DNA of 64,000 nt from Afipia massiliensis (GTDB lineage: Bacteria > Pseudomonadota > Alphaproteobacteria > Rhizobiales > Xanthobacteraceae), in assembly GCF_014203115.1 (NCBI RefSeq), contig NZ_JACHIJ010000002.1, forward strand, positions 868,001 to 932,000, in the 5' to 3' direction. The notes beneath the pieces were generated by a model that was not told the origin of the DNA, did no database searches, and was given only the letters and a program-made list of their open reading frames with translations. Position 1 is the stretch's first letter. Every line of letters begins with the position of its first letter. Shown piece by piece: positions 3,812 to 64,000 of the stretch. A program made the translations under genes and the position numbers.

Positions 3812-4444
3812 TCAGAAGGCGTAGGAAACCTGGGCGCCGTAATTGTTGATGCCGACATTCCTGTCGAAGCCGGTGCCGAAGACCTCTTTGCCGTTCGACA
3901 GATGGTCGAACGTCACCAGTACGCTCCACTGCGGCGTAAAGCGGTAACCGATCGATCCGCCCACATTGAAAAGGGCGCGGCTGCCAAGCGCATTGTGGGT
4001 CGCGTCGCCTGCTTTGGAGCCGTCGTGATAGGCCCCACCGAAAAAGATTTCGCCGAAGAAACGCTCGGTGAACGGAATTTGCCACAGCAAGCCCGCCCGG
4101 ACCGAACTGGTGCGGCCGCCGGTATTGAACATTCCGCCGACGTAGGTGTGGGGATTCAGGAAATTCCACCACCCATAGTTATCTGCCAGAAACTTGGGAA
4201 GAACGACCTGAAGGCTGGCGTCGAACGTATTGGCTTCCGCGCTTCCAACTGCATGGGCAAAGCCGCCAAGACGCACGTCGAAACCATAGGACCGTTTCGC
4301 AAGCGGCTCGGGCTGGAAGAGCGATTGGATTGGCAGAGAGGGCGACGGAGCACCGACATCTGCCGCCTTCACAGCGGCTCCGCTGGCCAACAAACCAAGC
4401 ATCAACAGGGCCGGCATCCAGCGATATGAGACGCGAAAAGTCAT
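3812..4444 (-). CDS. Acyloxyacyl hydrolase, PagL-like lipid A 3-O-deacylase
   Basis: An outer-membrane beta-barrel enzyme that in the PagL family removes the 3-O-acyl chain of lipid A. From the chosen start the protein is 210 residues: signal peptide (MPALLMLGLLASGAAVKA), then alternating amphipathic strands ending in an aromatic C-terminus (YGAQVSYAF) typical of barrels. The active-site motif is seen as His181-Leu-Ser183-Asn184 (TFDHLSNG), matching the His/Ser pair of PagL. A longer in-frame start at 4489 would put 15 non-signal residues before the signal peptide, so it is rejected. No lipid A genes are adjacent. Low similarity is normal in this family, so substrate specificity is inferred. 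Confidence 0.8.
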   Translation of the reverse strand: MTFRVSYRWMPALLMLGLLASGAAVKAADVGAPSPSLPIQSLFQPEPLAKRSYGFDVRLGGFAHAVGSAEANTFDASLQVVLPKFLADNYGWWNFLNPHTYVGGMFNTGGRTSSVRAGLLWQIPFTERFFGEIFFGGAYHDGSKAGDATHNALGSRALFNVGGSIGYRFTPQWSVLVTFDHLSNGKEVFGTGFDRNVGINNYGAQVSYAF

Positions 4445-4514
4445 CAAGAATGTCCAAATTGTGTTCGGACCATATGTCAGCCGCAACACATTCGGCGGTT
4501 ACAAGGTACCACCG

Positions 4515-4549
4515 AGAAAAAATCGCCCGGAAACGATTTCCGGGCGATC
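4515..4549 (-). terminator. Rho-independent terminator of tRNA-Tyr
   Basis: Perfect 12-bp stem (ATCGCCCGGAAA / TTTCCGGGCGAT, 4522-4548) with a CGA loop. On the minus strand it is followed by a run of Ts. It lies just downstream of the tRNA-Tyr 3' end and upstream of the PagL-like gene. Confidence 0.88.
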
Positions 4550-4555
4550 TTAGAT

Positions 4556-4641
4556 TGGTGGGGGAAGAAGGACTCGAACCTTCGAAGCCATACGGCGGCT
4601 GATTTACAGTCAGCTCCCTTTGCCACTCGGGACACTCCCCC
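4556..4641 (-). tRNA. tRNA-Tyr (GUA)
   Basis: Class II tRNA read from 4641: acceptor GGGGGAG, D arm starting TGTCCCGAGTGGC, anticodon loop CTGTAAA (anticodon GTA), long variable arm, T loop GGTTCGAGTCC, acceptor TTCCCCC and encoded ACCA ending at 4556. It is followed by its own terminator. Confidence 0.96.
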
Positions 4642-4860
4642 GCTCGACGTCATCCGACACCCTCGCCCACCCGAACGGGGGTGGTTGAACGGCCATGGAT
4701 GACGGTAAAAAGCGTGCCCGTAAACGGGCGCCCGGTCGGCGCGTTTATGGGCGAAGCGCCGGGGTAAAGTCAACCAAGGCGGGGACGAATATGACAGGTC
4801 GTTGCGATCCTGCCCAAAGCCGAAAATTGCCATTATTCCAGCCCCGTGGGACAAGGCCGC

Positions 4861-5742
4861 ATGAGCGATCGAGACCGGAAATCACGTTTCAAAGGCCCGA
4901 AAACAGGCGGACGCGGCGGCGACCGCGATCGGGAGCGCCCGGAACGGCATCAAGGCAAGCCTCAGGGCGGACGCCCTCAGTGGCGCGACCGCGACGCCAA
5001 GGGCGCGAAGGGGCACGCCAAAGGCGAAGGTCCCGTCATTCTTTATGGCTGGCACTCGGTCACCATGGCGCTGGCCAATCCCCAGCGGCGCATCCGCAAG
5101 CTGTTCGTCACCGAAAATGTCGCCCGGCGGCTCGCCGACGAGAAGATCGACACCCGCGTTCCGCCGGAACTGGTGCATCCCGGCGACATCGACCGCCGCC
5201 TCGGGCCGGATGCCGTGCATCAGGGCCTGCTCGCGGAGGCCGATCCCCTGCCCGGTTTGCACATCGATGAACTGCCGCAGGACGGCATCGTGCTGGTGCT
5301 CGACCAGATCACCGATCCGCACAACGTTGGCGCGATCCTGCGCTCCGCAGCGGCATTCGGCGTCAAGGCGATCGTCACCACCGGGCGGCACAGTCCCGAG
5401 GCAACCGGCGTGCTGGCGAAATCCGCATCTGGTGCACTCGAGCTTGTGCCGATTGTCGAAGTCCCGAACCTGCATCGCGCGCTCGGCGAAATGAACGAGG
5501 CAGGTTTCCTGACGGTCGGCCTCGACAGCGAAGGCCAGGGTGACCTCAGCGTCGTGCCGCTGCACGCCCCGCTGGCGCTGGTGCTGGGCGCGGAAGGCAA
5601 AGGCCTGCGTCAGCTCACGCGCGAAACCTGCAGCCTCGTCGCGCGCATGGACATGCCCGGCGCGATCAAGAGCCTCAACGTGTCGAATGCAGCTGCACTC
5701 GCGCTGTATATTGGATCGACCCGCCTCGGCCTGATGGGCTGA
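4861..5742 (+). CDS. rlmB: 23S rRNA (guanosine-2'-O-)-methyltransferase RlmB
   Basis: A SpoU/TrmH-family SAM-dependent 2'-O-ribose methyltransferase, most like RlmB which modifies G2251 of 23S rRNA. The 293-residue protein has a disordered basic N-terminal extension (~60 residues rich in Arg/Gly/Asp), a substrate-binding domain (ILYGWHSVTMAL onward) and the knotted catalytic domain with all three SpoU motifs: ITDPHNVGAILRSAAAFG, LGAEGKGLR and IKSLNVSNAAALALY. An in-frame ATG at 4846 is possible but MSDRDRK at 4861 is the natural start. The extension is longer than in E. coli RlmB. It is a single gene ending in a hairpin. A paralogous specificity (tRNA Gm18) is less likely given the upstream domain. 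Confidence 0.88.
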   Translation: MSDRDRKSRFKGPKTGGRGGDRDRERPERHQGKPQGGRPQWRDRDAKGAKGHAKGEGPVILYGWHSVTMALANPQRRIRKLFVTENVARRLADEKIDTRVPPELVHPGDIDRRLGPDAVHQGLLAEADPLPGLHIDELPQDGIVLVLDQITDPHNVGAILRSAAAFGVKAIVTTGRHSPEATGVLAKSASGALELVPIVEVPNLHRALGEMNEAGFLTVGLDSEGQGDLSVVPLHAPLALVLGAEGKGLRQLTRETCSLVARMDMPGAIKSLNVSNAAALALYIGSTRLGLMG

Positions 5743-59387: not shown

Positions 59388-59644
59388 TTTGTCTCTCCTA
59401 CCTGTCCCGGAGCGGACGTCCGGGGCCGCCCACAGGTACGCCAGGAACTTTGGCGCACACAACGCATTGAAGTCACGAGCTTTTGCCGCATCTCTGGGCA
59501 GCCGCCCGCTCGTTTTTCAGGCAGATCGACGCAAGGTCCCGTCAATTGCCCGCAGGCAATGCATATCGCGCTGGCCCAACCCTTGCTACCATCAGTTTGA
59601 GCAGCGGGACGGACCACTAGGACCTGAAAGAAGCGTACTGGTTT

Positions 59645-61060
59645 ATGGCAGTTGCCTTCGATGAAATGAATGGACCGGGCGGCGCTCTTCGCTCCGCCTA
59701 TCACGAACTCTCCCTCTGGCTGAAGGAGACCCCTCCGGACGCGCTGGAATACCGGCGTCAGGAGGCCGAGCTGCTGTTCCGGCGGATCGGCATCACCTTC
59801 GCGGTCTACGGCGAGGCCGAGTCCACCGAGCGGCTGATCCCATTTGACGTCATCCCCCGGATCCTGTCCGGCAAGGAATGGACGACGATGGAAAAGGGGC
59901 TGAAGCAGCGCGTCAAGGCGCTCAACATGTTCCTGAGCGACATCTATCACGGCCGCGACATCCTCCGAGCCAAGATCATTCCCGACGATCTGATCTTCCA
60001 GAACCCGGTGTTCAGGCCGGAGATGAACGGCCAGGACGTCCCGCACGACGTCTATGTCCACATCGCCGGGATCGACATCGTGCGCGTCGACTCCGAGAAC
60101 TTCTACGTGCTGGAAGACAACGCCCGCACGCCGTCCGGCGTGTCCTACATGCTGGAAAACCGCGAAATCATGATGCGGCTGTTTCCGGACCTGTTCGCGC
60201 GGCATCGCGTGGCGCCGGTGGAGAACTATCCGGATGAACTGCTGGCAGCGTTGCGCTCGGTGGCCCCCCTCACCTCGAAGGCCGAACCGACCGTCGCCCT
60301 GCTCACGCCCGGCATCTACAACTCGGCGTACTACGAACACTCGTTTCTAGCCGACAAGCTTGGCGTCGAACTGGTCGAGGGCCGCGACCTCATCGTCAAG
60401 AACGACGAAGTGTTCATGCGCACGACCGAGGGACTGAAACGCGTCGATGTGATCTACCGCCGCGTCGATGACGACTTCCTCGACCCCCTCACCTTCCGCC
60501 CCGACTCTGTGCTCGGCGTTCCGGGCCTGATGTCGGCTTATATCGCCGGTAACGTCACGCTCGCCAACGCGGTCGGCACCGGTATCGCCGACGACAAGGC
60601 GGTCTACAGCTACATGCCGGACATCGTGAAGTTCTATCTCGGAGAAGAGCCGATCCTGAAGAACGTCCCGACCTATCGCTGCCGCGAGCCGAAGGACCTC
60701 TCCTACGTGCTCGACAACCTCAAAGACCTCGTCGTCAAGGAAGTGCATGGCTCCGGCGGCTACGGCATGCTGATCGGCCCCGCTTCCACCAACGAGATGA
60801 TCGAAGCCTTCCGCGCCAAACTGCTGAAGGAGCCGGAAGGCTTCATCGCACAGCCGACGCTGGCGCTGTCCACCTGCCCAACCTGCACCGCATCGGGCCT
60901 TGCGCCGCGCCACGTCGATCTACGGCCGTTTGTGCTGACCGGCAAGGATCACGTCACCGTGGTGCCCGGCGGTCTCACCCGTGTGGCGCTGAAGGAAGGT
61001 TCGCTCGTGGTCAATTCCAGCCAGGGCGGCGGCACCAAAGATACGTGGATACTCGAGTAA
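59645..61060 (+). CDS. Circularly permuted type 2 ATP-grasp protein (Anbu cluster)
   Basis: A 471-residue predicted ATP-dependent carboxylate-amine ligase of the circularly permuted ATP-grasp type (DUF404/DUF407). Motifs seen: KQRVKALNMFLSDIYHGRDI, DNARTPSGVSYMLENREIMM, VLGVPGLMSAYIAGNVTLAN, VVKEVHGSGGYGMLIGPAS, APRHVDLRPFVLTGKD and the C-terminal LVVNSSQGGGTKDTWIL. It would join an acid to an amine, probably making a peptide or isopeptide bond. It is the first of a four-gene set with alpha-E, transglutaminase-like and Anbu genes, known from comparative genomics as a conserved neighbourhood. The alpha-E gene starts three bases after its stop. Confidence 0.92.
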   Translation: MAVAFDEMNGPGGALRSAYHELSLWLKETPPDALEYRRQEAELLFRRIGITFAVYGEAESTERLIPFDVIPRILSGKEWTTMEKGLKQRVKALNMFLSDIYHGRDILRAKIIPDDLIFQNPVFRPEMNGQDVPHDVYVHIAGIDIVRVDSENFYVLEDNARTPSGVSYMLENREIMMRLFPDLFARHRVAPVENYPDELLAALRSVAPLTSKAEPTVALLTPGIYNSAYYEHSFLADKLGVELVEGRDLIVKNDEVFMRTTEGLKRVDVIYRRVDDDFLDPLTFRPDSVLGVPGLMSAYIAGNVTLANAVGTGIADDKAVYSYMPDIVKFYLGEEPILKNVPTYRCREPKDLSYVLDNLKDLVVKEVHGSGGYGMLIGPASTNEMIEAFRAKLLKEPEGFIAQPTLALSTCPTCTASGLAPRHVDLRPFVLTGKDHVTVVPGGLTRVALKEGSLVVNSSQGGGTKDTWILE

Positions 61061-61063
61061 CGC

Positions 61064-62008
61064 ATGCTGTCGCGCACCGCAGAAAGTCTCTACTGGCTGG
61101 CCCGCTACGTCGAACGCGCGGAGTATCTCGCGCGCACCATCGAGGCGACGCTACGCGCCACCGCGCTGCCCGATGCCTATGTCGGCAAGAGCAACGAATG
61201 GGAATCCGCGCTGCTCACCGCGGGCATCGACGACATCTTTTACAAGTTTCACGAAGAGGCCAACGAGCGCACCGTCGTCGACTTCCTGTCGTTCTCGCTC
61301 GACAACCCCTCCTCGATCCGCAACTGCATCGAGAATGCGCGGCTGAATTCACGCTCGGTGCGCACCGCGCTGACCTCTGAGATGTGGGATACCATCAACG
61401 GTGCGTGGATCGAGTTGCACGCGAAATGGCCCAAAGGCGCGAAGACGCGCGAGGACCTGACGAAATTTCTCCGCTTCGTGCAGGAAACCTCACTGCGGTT
61501 CGACGGCTCCGCCTACCGGACGATGCTGCGCAACGATGCCTACTGGTTTTCGCGGCTCGGCCTGCATCTGGAACGCGCCGACAACACCGCGCGTATTCTC
61601 GACGTGAAGTATCACGTGCTGCTGCCTGAGGAAGAGCATGTCGGCGGCCCGCTCGATTACTATCAGTGGACCTCGATCCTGCGTTCGGTCTCGGCGCTCA
61701 CCGCCTACCACTGGGTCTATCGCGAAACGCTGAAGCCGTGGCTGATCGCGGATCTGCTCATTCTCAATGAGTCGCTGCCGCGCTCGCTGGCGAGCTGCTA
61801 CGGCAATCTCGTGCGCAATCTCGACCAGATCGGCGTCGCCTACGGACGGCAGGGCGCGGCGCAACGCCACGCGCGCGGCGTTCGCAACCGGCTGGAACAT
61901 GCGCACATGGACGACCTGTTCCAGCGCGGCCTGCACGAATTCATCCAGGAATTCATTGCGGACAATGCCCGGTTGGGCGATACCATCTCGAAGCAATACC
62001 TGATCTGA
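61064..62008 (+). CDS. Alpha-E domain protein (Anbu cluster)
   Basis: A 314-residue all-helical protein of the DUF403 alpha-E family, named for conserved acidic residues in its helices. Start MLSRTAESLYWLARYVERAE and the later DNTARILDVKYHVLLPEEE and VGGPLDYYQWTSILRSVSAL are typical. It nearly always accompanies the ATP-grasp ligase and may act as its partner or substrate-binding subunit. Translational coupling to the ATP-grasp gene is likely (three-base gap). Function unproven. Confidence 0.92.
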   Translation: MLSRTAESLYWLARYVERAEYLARTIEATLRATALPDAYVGKSNEWESALLTAGIDDIFYKFHEEANERTVVDFLSFSLDNPSSIRNCIENARLNSRSVRTALTSEMWDTINGAWIELHAKWPKGAKTREDLTKFLRFVQETSLRFDGSAYRTMLRNDAYWFSRLGLHLERADNTARILDVKYHVLLPEEEHVGGPLDYYQWTSILRSVSALTAYHWVYRETLKPWLIADLLILNESLPRSLASCYGNLVRNLDQIGVAYGRQGAAQRHARGVRNRLEHAHMDDLFQRGLHEFIQEFIADNARLGDTISKQYLI

Positions 62009-62031
62009 TGCGACCCGGATTCCATTGATGC

Positions 62032-62162
62032 CATCATGGCCGGGCATAGCCGTTCGAAGAACGGCGTTCTAAAGAACGCCTATGTCCCGGCCATCCACGA
62101 CTTGCTTCGGAAAGCCGCAATAAAAAAGACGTGGATGCCCGGCACAAGGCCGGGCATGATGA
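62032..62162. repeat. Palindromic repeat family, copy 2
   Basis: Near-identical to 43614-43731: identical from TCATGGCCGGGCATAGCC through GGCCATCCACG and again over the last ~34 bases ending CGGGCATGA. The middle differs and is longer here. It fills most of the 176-base gap between the alpha-E and transglutaminase genes. Confidence 0.92.
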
Positions 62163-62184
62163 AACTCAAATTGTTTGACACGCC

Positions 62185-63009
62185 ATGCGCCTGAAAATCG
62201 CCCACACCACCACATACCGCTACGAGCCGCCGGCGACCGGCGTGATCCAGATTCTGCGCATGACGCCGGGCAGCCATGACGGCCAGTATGTCGCCGACTG
62301 GCAGATCGACGTCTCCACCGATACGCGCCTCGACGTGCATCAGGATGCCTTCGGCAACGTCACGCACGTGCTGACTCATGGCGCACTGTCGGACCTGACC
62401 ATCCATGTCGAAGGCCTGATCGAGACCCATGACACCGGTGGCGTGGTGCGCGGCACCGACGAGCGATTCCCACCGAGCCTTTTCCTGCGCGCCACGCCGC
62501 TGACCGAGGTCAACGCAGCGATGGCGAAGTTCGCCAGCAACCTTTTCAGCGACGCGGCCGGCGACACGCTGGGTTTCCTTCATGCGCTGATGCTTCAGAT
62601 CAACGATCACATGACGTTCGATACCGATCCGACCCACGCCGGAACATCCGCCACAGAAGCTTTCGCGCTCAAGCGCGGCGTCTGTCAGGATTACGCGCAC
62701 ATCTTCATTGCCTGCGCCCGCAGCGTTGGCGTCCCGGCCCGCTACGTCTCAGGGCATCTGCTCCGCTCCGACGGCATGGTCGCGCAGGATGCGGGGCACG
62801 CTTGGGCGGAAGCTTACGTCGAGCGGCTCGGCTGGGTCGGGTTCGATGCAACCAACGCCATCTGCACCACGGAGTCCCATGTCCGGGTCGCAGTCGGTCT
62901 TGACTACCTGAGCGCTGCTCCGACGCGCGGCACCCGTTACGGCGGCGGCACGGAGACGCTGGAAGTCGCCGTCAGGGTCGATCAGGCCGGACGGCAGAGC
63001 CAATCGTGA
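62185..63009 (+). CDS. Transglutaminase-like protein (Anbu cluster)
   Basis: A 274-residue protein with an N-terminal beta-rich region (MRLKIAHTTTYRYEPPATGV) and a transglutaminase-fold peptidase domain with the triad Cys167 (KRGVCQDYAHIF), His205 (DAGHAWAEAYV) and Asp221 (VGFDATN). Such enzymes usually hydrolyse peptide or isopeptide bonds in bacteria. No signal peptide is seen, so it probably acts in the cytoplasm with the ATP-grasp/alpha-E pair and Anbu, as a cleaving or processing partner. The start at 62185 gives a natural N-terminus. Confidence 0.92.
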   Translation: MRLKIAHTTTYRYEPPATGVIQILRMTPGSHDGQYVADWQIDVSTDTRLDVHQDAFGNVTHVLTHGALSDLTIHVEGLIETHDTGGVVRGTDERFPPSLFLRATPLTEVNAAMAKFASNLFSDAAGDTLGFLHALMLQINDHMTFDTDPTHAGTSATEAFALKRGVCQDYAHIFIACARSVGVPARYVSGHLLRSDGMVAQDAGHAWAEAYVERLGWVGFDATNAICTTESHVRVAVGLDYLSAAPTRGTRYGGGTETLEVAVRVDQAGRQSQS

Positions 63010-63096
63010 CGGTTTCATTCGTCTGACGGGCGTATGCCCGGCCGCTGGCCGGTTGCCCCACCCGCTCCAGCCGCGTAGAAATGCACGGTCTGGAGA

Positions 63097-63174
63097 CCAG
63101 TGGAGTGGATTTGACATTCGCGACCCATTTGCAGAGGGTTCGCAACGCGAATGTCAAATCCAAAACTCCACTGG
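63097..63174. repeat. Palindromic element IR-A
   Basis: The left arm starts CCAGTGGAGTGGATTTGACA and runs into TTCGC (63097-63121). The right arm, GCGAATGTCAAATCC then ACTCCACTGG (63147-63174), pairs with it apart from a three-base bulge. It has the same layout as IR-B, 13 bases to the right. Confidence 0.9.
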
Positions 63175-63187
63175 AAACTTATATTCG

Positions 63188-63264
63188 CTAGTGGTCCTTT
63201 GATTCTAACATTCGCAAAAGATCGCTGCTGAAACGGGATGCGAATGTTAGAACCGGACCACTAG
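63188..63264. repeat. Palindromic element IR-B
   Basis: CTAGTGGTCC...TTCTAACATTCGC pairs with GCGAATGTTAGAACC...GGACCACTAG, with a three-base bulge. Both ends are CTAG. It ends one base before the Anbu start codon, so the Anbu ribosome-binding region lies within the element and no Shine-Dalgarno is visible. Confidence 0.9.
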
Positions 63265-63265
63265 T

Positions 63266-64000
63266 ATGACCTATTGCTGCGGAATCCTCGTACGTGACGG
63301 GCTGATGATGATGGCCGACACCCGCACCAATGCGGGCCTCGACAACATCTCCACCTTCCGCAAGCTGCACGTCTTCAGCAATCCCGGCGAGCGGATCATG
63401 GCGATCGCCACTGCCGGCAATCTGGCCCTCACCCAATCCGTCATCTCGACGCTGAACGAAGGATTTGAAAACCCCGAGACCGGCGAACGTGAAACGCTGA
63501 TGAACGCGCCGACCATGTTTCAGGCGGCGCAGCGCATCGGCCGCGCCATCCGGAGCGTTCATGCGCTCGAAGGCAGCGCGCTGCGCGCCGAGGATATTTC
63601 CTTCGACGTGTCGTTTCTGTTCGGCGGCCAGATCAAGGGCGCACGGATGCGGCTGTTCATGGTCTACACCGCCGGCAACTTCATCGAATGCACCACCGAT
63701 ACGCCCTACCTGCAGATCGGCGAGCACAAATACGGCAAGCCCGTGCTCGACCGCGCGATCTCCTATGACGTCGATCTGTATGACGCGCTCAAGGTCGGGC
63801 TGGTGTCGATGGATTCGACGATGCGCTCCAATCTCGGCGTCGGCATGCCGATCGACATTCTTCTGGTGCGTCCCGACGCCCTCGACGCCGACCTGAACTA
63901 TCGCATCGAAGCGGGCGAGCCGTATTTCCACGATCTGCGCTCGCGCTGGTCGGCTGCACTGCGCGCCGCGCACCAGAACATCCCGCGTCCGCCTTACGGG
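63266..64000 (+). CDS. Anbu proteasome-like peptidase (3' end beyond window)
   Basis: The first 245 residues of a proteasome-type N-terminal-nucleophile peptidase of the Anbu family. After Met removal the chain begins Thr1-Tyr-Cys-Cys-Gly; Asp17 and Lys32 lie where the proteasome-type Thr/Asp/Lys set is expected (MADTRTNAGLD; FRKLHVF). The domain continues through FDVSFLFGGQIKGARMRLFM and SMDSTMRSNLGVGMPIDILL. Anbu forms ring or lock-washer assemblies in relatives; its substrates are unknown. The frame is open to the window end, so the stop lies beyond. Anbu is preceded by the ATP-grasp, alpha-E and transglutaminase genes of its conserved cluster. Confidence 0.92.
   Translation, partial: MTYCCGILVRDGLMMMADTRTNAGLDNISTFRKLHVFSNPGERIMAIATAGNLALTQSVISTLNEGFENPETGERETLMNAPTMFQAAQRIGRAIRSVHALEGSALRAEDISFDVSFLFGGQIKGARMRLFMVYTAGNFIECTTDTPYLQIGEHKYGKPVLDRAISYDVDLYDALKVGLVSMDSTMRSNLGVGMPIDILLVRPDALDADLNYRIEAGEPYFHDLRSRWSAALRAAHQNIPRPPYG

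Follow-up and report, generated by a model that had tools for sequence, protein, structure and literature searches.

The 64,000-nt stretch of the Afipia massiliensis genome analysed here (the window; contig NZ_JACHIJ010000002.1, positions 868,001 to 932,000) ends in a cluster of genes for an ATP-grasp ligase, an Alpha-E protein, a transglutaminase-like protein (TGase) and Anbu, a proteasome-like hydrolase of the N-terminal nucleophile (Ntn) type. Our best reading of this locus, held at a probability of roughly 0.45, is a nitrogen-starvation amide-ligase module composed of the first three genes (the trio) and a separable hydrolase, Anbu. The distribution of genes and upstream elements suggests that nitrogen-type control goes with the trio and not with Anbu. 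The two would then be distinct systems. One would be an ancient NtrC-controlled module that kept its boxes after the loss of sigma-54 and whose TGase has repeatedly turned into a non-catalytic binder; the other would be an independently expressed Anbu, neither nitrogen-controlled itself nor needed by the module. We hold this extended version at somewhat below even odds.

Gene content and order

The cluster, at positions 59645-64012, is a genuine member of the known Anbu operon family and is not in itself new. The operon, its order, functional hypotheses and the nitrogen response of Pseudomonas putida have been published, as has the failure to detect an activity of Anbu (PMC5666114, PMC6376114, PMC7801951, PMC8050072). 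According to a preliminary description of the locus, all four partners of the Anbu neighbourhood were present in order, with Cys167/His205/Asp221 of the TGase and Thr1/Asp17/Lys32 of Anbu intact. Open reading frames (ORFs), Pfam matches and solved relatives confirm the gene set, and the translations confirm the residues (those of Anbu are numbered after removal of the initiator Met).

59645..61060, + strand: ATP-grasp ligase, circularly permuted (CP_ATPgrasp_2), 471 aa; ORF and Pfam match, E 4e-169
61064..62008, + strand: Alpha-E protein, 314 aa; ORF and Pfam match, E 4e-90
62185..63009, + strand: TGase, 274 aa; Transglut_core 7.5e-23 with Bact_transglu_N; Cys167/His205/Asp221 intact
63266..64000, real end 64012 beyond the window, + strand: Anbu, proteasome-like Ntn hydrolase; Proteasome Pfam match, E 6e-6

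The full-length Anbu of the genome has 248 aa (L003 5267-6013), its last three codons lying past the window end. ATP-grasp and Alpha-E are tightly spaced, at 3 nt, and looser gaps of 176 nt and 256 nt precede TGase and Anbu. Of 61 relatives, 44 have Anbu, as do 115 of 299 genomes sampled across the phylum; the source genome is counted in both samples. We retrieved 140 loci, 112 of 115 non-own phylum places and 28 of 44 non-own relative places. Together with the window's own locus, 101 of the 141 Anbu loci display the order ATP-grasp, Alpha-E, TGase, Anbu, and the order is therefore not due to chance. In 20 loci Anbu stands alone (about 6.5 kb upstream covered, or less where a contig ends), and the remaining 20 have a rearranged order.

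Nitrogen-type control region of the trio

Three elements precede the ATP-grasp gene.

59484..59500, + strand: NtrC-type box 1, TGC-N11-GCA (TGCCGCATCTCTGGGCA); genus conservation
59547..59563, + strand: NtrC-type box 2, TGC-N11-GCA (TGCCCGCAGGCAATGCA); genus conservation
59572..59587, + strand: sigma-54 type -24/-12 box (TGGCCCAACCCTTGCT); score 14 of 15

The sigma-54 box, whose GG and GC stand ten bases apart, ranks with the best-conserved non-coding blocks when 14 operons of the genus are aligned, and the NtrC-type palindromes form conserved non-coding blocks in the same alignment. All 14 operons have at least one TGC-N11-GCA site upstream, and 12 have two; box 1 lies 88-89 nt and box 2 25 nt before the sigma-54 box, each in 11 of the 14. 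Both kinds of box have the form of the published consensus, TGGCACnnTTnTTGC for sigma-54 and the 17-bp TGCACCAnnnTGGTGCA for NtrC (PMC8743547). Our own sigma-54 scoring scheme was written prior to the comparison with this published form. A spacing of 11 nt between GC elements has been reported in P. stutzeri as well (PMC8443478).

Across the 101 ordered operons, the sigma-54 box reaches a score of at least 14 in 41 on the forward strand and in none on the reverse; with a score of at least 13.5 within 150 nt, the count is 43. TGC-N11-GCA occurs upstream of ATP-grasp in 59 of the 101 operons, against 9-25 for other spacings (5 to 17), and in the control regions before Alpha-E, TGase and Anbu in 8, 19 and 11, respectively. 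None of the 101 in-operon Anbu genes has a sigma-54 box of its own. Thinning the set to 30 operons (<65% Anbu identity) leaves the palindrome in 18, with 1-8 for other spacings. As a positive control, P-II genes of the same order carry it in 14 of 29 cases (a thirtieth locus was excluded as too short), with 2-7 for other spacings. A second, named set, scored with no distance limit, displays the sigma-54 box in 47 of 79 loci (3 of 79 on the reverse strand) and TGC-N11-GCA in 41 of 79, with 4-17 for other spacings.

The source genome (5.3 Mb) carries rpoN, and 124 of 140 genomes contain Sigma54_DBD. The 14 operons out of 101 that reside in genomes without Sigma54_DBD include 8 with the palindrome and 1 with the sigma-54 box; 5 more operons belong to genomes with a divergent rpoN, and 2 of these have the palindrome. 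At loci L113 and L115, from two genomes that are about 2 Mb in size and have no Sigma54_DBD, ATP-grasp is preceded by TGCACTTTTATGGTGCA, which is near the NtrC consensus. Neither the split in control between trio and Anbu nor boxes in rpoN-less genomes were found in the open-licence literature.

Two published systems point in the same direction. In P. putida, PP_2685 (Anbu-like), PP_2686 (transglutaminase) and PP_2688 (ATP-grasp) are nitrogen-responsive and have been assigned to NtrB/NtrC (PMC7801951, PMC8050072); under nitrogen limitation of the wild type, PP_2686-88 are up 11-15 fold and the Anbu gene PP_2685 1.12 fold (PMC7801951). By comparison, the nitrogen signals in A. massiliensis are known from sequence alone; in its genus they precede the trio, and Anbu has another element. 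NtrC would bind the two palindromes, and induction of the trio is predicted for this species. The Burkholderia cenocepacia cluster I35_5080-5083 (DUF404/407, DUF403, TGase, large TGase) shares ATP-grasp, Alpha-E and TGase with the window and is controlled by NtrC/sigma-54; Anbu is not among the four genes listed (PMC5491218). A 2025 sigma-54 survey lists COG3484 (PMC12316311), and DUF403/404/407 vary with urea genes in marine metagenomes (PMC3597751).

Separate occurrence of trio and Anbu

Stand-alone Anbu genes lack the nitrogen signals: the sigma-54 box was found in 0 of 20 and TGC-N11-GCA in 3 of 20, which equals background. Conversely, a scan of the named genomes for Alpha-E, restricted to the best 80 of 592 confirmed places, gave 66 places with Anbu behind the trio, 12 with a trio and no Anbu in the available DNA, and 2 with ATP-grasp and Alpha-E only; among the places without Anbu, some stretches end soon after the trio, and one ATP-grasp/Alpha-E pair is cut by a contig end. 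Among trios without Anbu, the sigma-54 box and the palindrome are each retained in 6 of 14, compared with 41 of 65 and 35 of 65, respectively, among trios with Anbu (one locus of the 80 could not be scored, and in 2 of the 14 the DNA stops too early to exclude Anbu).

Three genomes of the same genus (G008, G012 and G021; completeness 93, 99 and 100) have kept Anbu between the CinA-like and short-chain dehydrogenase/reductase (SDR) genes, with no trio at the Anbu locus and no Alpha-E domain anywhere in the genome. At two trio-less loci of the genus (L164, L165) the promoter region can still be identified by the GCATATCGCG block, its -24 and -12 elements having decayed; at the third it is not recognisable. 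The 20 genomes with a lone Anbu include 15 with Alpha-E elsewhere and 5 without it; in one lone case (G051) Alpha-E is encoded about 7 kb upstream in the same orientation, just outside the stretch covered. Stand-alone Alpha-E is present in 13 of 30 Anbu-less genomes (taken from lists, non-random) and absent from 17. These data demonstrate that each unit is found without the other.

Seven rearranged loci (L126, L128, L129, L131, L132, L144 and L145) have Anbu and TGase beside a second, oppositely oriented ATP-grasp/TGase set.

Anbu and its promoter-like element

A candidate promoter lies in the spacer between TGase and Anbu.

63053..63081, + strand: TTGCCC-N17-TAGAAA, a sigma-70-like element and probable promoter for Anbu itself; genus conservation

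The pattern TTGCC(C/T)-N17-TAGAAA or TAAAAA, composed after inspection of the genus alignment, precedes Anbu in 17 of 18 loci of the genus, the three trio-less ones included; shuffled sequences give a mean of 0.015, and outside the genus it was found in 1 of 123 loci. It stands 47-57 nt upstream of Anbu in 14 loci and about 213 nt upstream in 3, the window among them. Anbu probably has its own promoter in this genus, and its independent expression, which the preliminary description had named as a refuting observation, is likely on sequence grounds. As to transcription of the operon as one unit, the promoter-like element favours a partial independence of Anbu, which we likewise regard as likely.

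Distinct promoter-like elements and separate occurrence would also be expected if Anbu and the trio were neighbours through history, with unrelated jobs. This ordinary linkage is hard to reconcile with the order kept in 101 of 141 loci of the phylum sample, with the 66 of the best 80 of 592 Alpha-E places that have Anbu behind the trio, and with the rearranged loci, 18 of 20 of which carry an ATP-grasp or Alpha-E gene and so keep Anbu near a trio gene. We regard it as the least probable of the explanations considered here.

The Anbu protein itself is well preserved. It matches the solved structures 5loy (a designed Anbu; E 4.5e-83) and 5nyj (E 3.1e-75), and across loci Thr1 is found in 205 of 206 sequences (one has Ser), Asp17 in 206 of 206 and Lys32 in 206 of 206. 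By its sequence similarity to 5loy and 5nyj, the protein may share the open-ring or helical oligomer, the exposed Thr1 and the inhibitor binding of the family. Its S1 pocket fits the Anbu-1 subtype, with T20, F30, T48 and L52 identical and T55 in place of S55. The Anbu operons of Pseudomonas aeruginosa and Yersinia bercovieri share with the window the four families, their order, the catalytic residues and the Anbu-1 S1 pocket (PMC5666114, PMC6376114). The window departs from them in the 256-nt gap between TGase and Anbu, in the promoter-like element that Anbu has to itself and in the two palindromic repeats, and tight coupling is restricted in it to ATP-grasp/Alpha-E.

With HslV and the 20S proteasome beta subunit, Anbu shares the Ntn fold family and Thr1/Asp17/Lys32. 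Unlike for these, no AAA+ ATPase gene lies among the examined neighbours of the operon, and the match to the Proteasome Pfam family is a weak one, at 26.5 bits against a cut-off of 22.4, with TIGR03634 far below its cut-off. The examined neighbours, three genes upstream and one downstream, encode CinA-like, thioesterase, phosphoribosyltransferase and SDR proteins; neither an AAA+ unfoldase nor an alpha subunit partner is among them.

These features bear on a tag-and-degrade pathway, in which ATP-grasp and Alpha-E would tag proteins with a peptide or amine, the TGase-like protein would edit the tag and Anbu would be the chamber dedicated to degradation, nitrogen starvation triggering protein recycling. 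The order shared by 101 of 141 Anbu loci, the nitrogen-type control of the trio and the binding of proteasome inhibitors at Thr1 of Anbu (PMC5666114) fit such a pathway. It is weakened by genomes with Alpha-E alone (13 of 30 Anbu-less genomes) or with a lone Anbu and no Alpha-E (5 of 20), by stand-alone Anbu genes devoid of nitrogen boxes, by the missing unfoldase among the examined operon neighbours, and by the lack of peptidase activity in the accessible portions of PMC5666114 and PMC6376114. We consider it unlikely. The preliminary description had proposed either tag-and-degrade or a peptide that is made, cut and recycled. The proposal is close to published hypotheses (PMC5666114, PMC6376114), and that much of it stands; an obligatory four-part pathway is unsupported, because trio and Anbu occur apart both ways and Anbu outlives the trio in the genus, because Anbu has its own promoter-like element there, and because the TGase has lost its Cys in 18 of 179 loci. 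Obligatory tag-and-degrade is thereby weakened.

Proteins of the trio

The ATP-grasp protein matches PDB entry 3n6x across nearly its whole length (E 1.2e-206), and its Y. bercovieri counterpart releases phosphate from ATP (PMC6376114). Alpha-E has no convincing solved relative by sequence search. It is all-helical (structure model with a predicted local distance difference test score, pLDDT, of 86.3), and its halves align with each other (HHalign probability 99, E 6.4e-18). By this internal alignment the protein is a tandem duplication, the repeated unit being about 140 aa long; it forms a two-fold helical repeat that contains two ER motifs. Two loci contain interrupted trio genes: in L155 of the genus (4325-5739) ATP-grasp is read in three overlapping frames, and in L270 (10001-10936), from a Caulobacteraceae metagenome-assembled genome, the Alpha-E match contains a stop codon; assembly error or decay may account for both.

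The TGase (E 3e-11 against the solved relative 3isr) is more variable at its catalytic site than Anbu is. Across 179 loci Asp221 is kept in 179, His205 in 175 and Cys167 in 161, with Gly, Ala, Pro, Ser or Val replacing Cys167 in the other 18. The loss was first noticed in an alignment of 57 sequences, 44 of which have the Cys, and it requires at least five changes on a quick tree built without that column. Anbu stands behind 13 of the 18 Cys-less TGases, and in 12 of these it passed the score cut with Thr1, Asp17 and Lys32. In the named set, 5 of the 12 trios lacking Anbu have a Cys-less TGase, as do 10 of the 66 with Anbu, counts uncorrected for kinship. Since 18 of 179 loci have a TGase without its nucleophile, the 'two peptidases' that the preliminary description placed next to the ligase are not a fixed feature of the cluster. 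TGase Cys losses and the Alpha-E duplication were not found in the open-licence literature, in which no search was aimed at either by name.

A second cluster in the source genome

The source genome carries a second, Anbu-less cluster (L004 7553-16331, C1) encoding a DUF2126 TGase/amidoligase, an ATP-grasp/Alpha-E fusion of 835 aa (L004 8428-10935, minus strand) and a TGase, and the part of it at L004 7553-14320 resembles B. cenocepacia I35_5080-5083 (PMC5491218). The cluster adjoins a PAS/sigma-54 activator gene and NMT1-type ABC transporter genes. No above-threshold sigma-54 box and no NtrC-type site were found before its ATP-grasp/Alpha-E and DUF2126 genes.

ATP-grasp relatives form amide bonds, and 3n6x is titled a putative glutathionylspermidine synthase. 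The trio might accordingly synthesize a small molecule or peptide, a secreted or stored amide such as a poly- or oligoamide, which the TGase-like protein would mature and Anbu recycle. The existence of trios without Anbu and of the second cluster with its DUF2126 putative amidoligase is in line with such synthesis. On the other hand, no transporter, carrier or precursor-peptide gene was recognised among the largest neighbour clusters listed (ORFs of at least 80 aa), and the production of a nitrogen-rich compound under nitrogen hunger would be odd. We give this explanation about the same low standing as tag-and-degrade.

Functional interpretation

Under the preferred reading, a nitrogen-starvation ligase module with a separable Anbu, the locus comprises two functional units. 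The first, ATP-grasp, Alpha-E and the TGase-like protein, would be an amide-ligase module switched on in nitrogen starvation by NtrC, here with sigma-54. Its ATP-grasp enzyme would activate a carboxylate using ATP and couple it to an amine, with Alpha-E as its putative partner or carrier. The TGase-like protein would bind the product and, where the Cys is still present, hydrolyse or transfer it. The second unit, Anbu, would be an Ntn hydrolase that assembles by itself and is expressed in this genus from a promoter of its own, able to act on products of the first unit and also persisting alone. The purpose of the module may be nitrogen scavenging or recycling.

Several observations weigh against this reading. 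No sigma-54 box at threshold was found in 40 of 82 operons from genomes with a normal rpoN, 20 of these 40 having the palindrome. The TGC-N11-GCA core has six fixed bases only, and another regulator could bind it. None of the four P-II genes of the source genome has a sigma-54 box together with a nearby palindrome: in one, a strong box (score 14) has no palindrome close by, another has palindromes without a box, and two have neither. A P. putida rpoN mutant limited for nitrogen still raises the trio 14-20 fold, which implies that sigma-54 may be dispensable there and speaks against a strict need for it; the urt genes, also assigned to NtrB/NtrC, behave like the trio in this mutant (PMC7801951). 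On nitrate, the P. putida Anbu gene reaches a log2 value of 4.4 and the ATP-grasp gene 4.0, contrary to a decoupling of the two (PMC8050072). The promoter-like element of Anbu is restricted to the genus. Known since 2008, Anbu still has neither a substrate nor an activity to its name, and no peptidase activity was detected in the two studies consulted (PMC5666114, PMC6376114). Finally, the three genomes with a Cys-less operon TGase that were checked carry other TGases having the Cys motif. TGase chemistry may therefore come from elsewhere in these genomes, and the Cys-less operon TGase may then retain a binding role.

If nitrogen starvation drives the trio and not Anbu, pull-downs and peptide assays that start from Anbu may be misdirected. 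The question would shift to the product of the ligase trio, to be sought in nitrogen-starved cells, the growth condition to which the nitrogen-type boxes point, with Anbu regarded as a separable partner. Split control would also make the job of Anbu easier to test. The three genomes of the genus with Anbu and no trio, and the genomes with Alpha-E and no Anbu, constitute natural deletion strains.

Neighbouring genes and spacer repeats

Among the largest neighbour clusters listed (ORFs of at least 80 aa), the widest are those of the SDR gene, present in 31 of 141 loci, mostly of the window's own family, and of an alpha/beta hydrolase gene, present in 11 loci. A related ORF on the same strand lies about 0.8 kb past the Anbu start in loci of several families (L060, L062, L063, L070, L072, L073, L074, L079, L097, L100 and L168). 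In L097 and L100 it encodes an alpha/beta hydrolase (Pfam Abhydrolase_6); the single ORF tried past Anbu in L168 gave no Pfam match.

The spacer before Anbu contains two palindromic repeats, the second resembling a miniature inverted-repeat transposable element (MITE).

63106..63162: inverted repeat with 17-nt arms, between the Anbu element and Anbu; from the sequence
63188..63264: MITE-like palindromic repeat of about 76 bp, ends CTAGTGGTCC / GGACCACTAG, directly before Anbu; from the sequence

The inverted repeat was not seen in most aligned sister loci, where the promoter-like element lies 47-57 nt before Anbu. The MITE-like repeat is represented in the source genome by 12 paired copies and 5 single ends. 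One single end is located in the ATP-grasp leader (59611-59620) and is absent from 13 aligned sister loci. A GC-rich arm with CCGGGCAT in the Alpha-E/TGase spacer (62139-62157) recurs in inverted orientation, at 79% identity, in the TGase/Anbu spacer (63034-63052).

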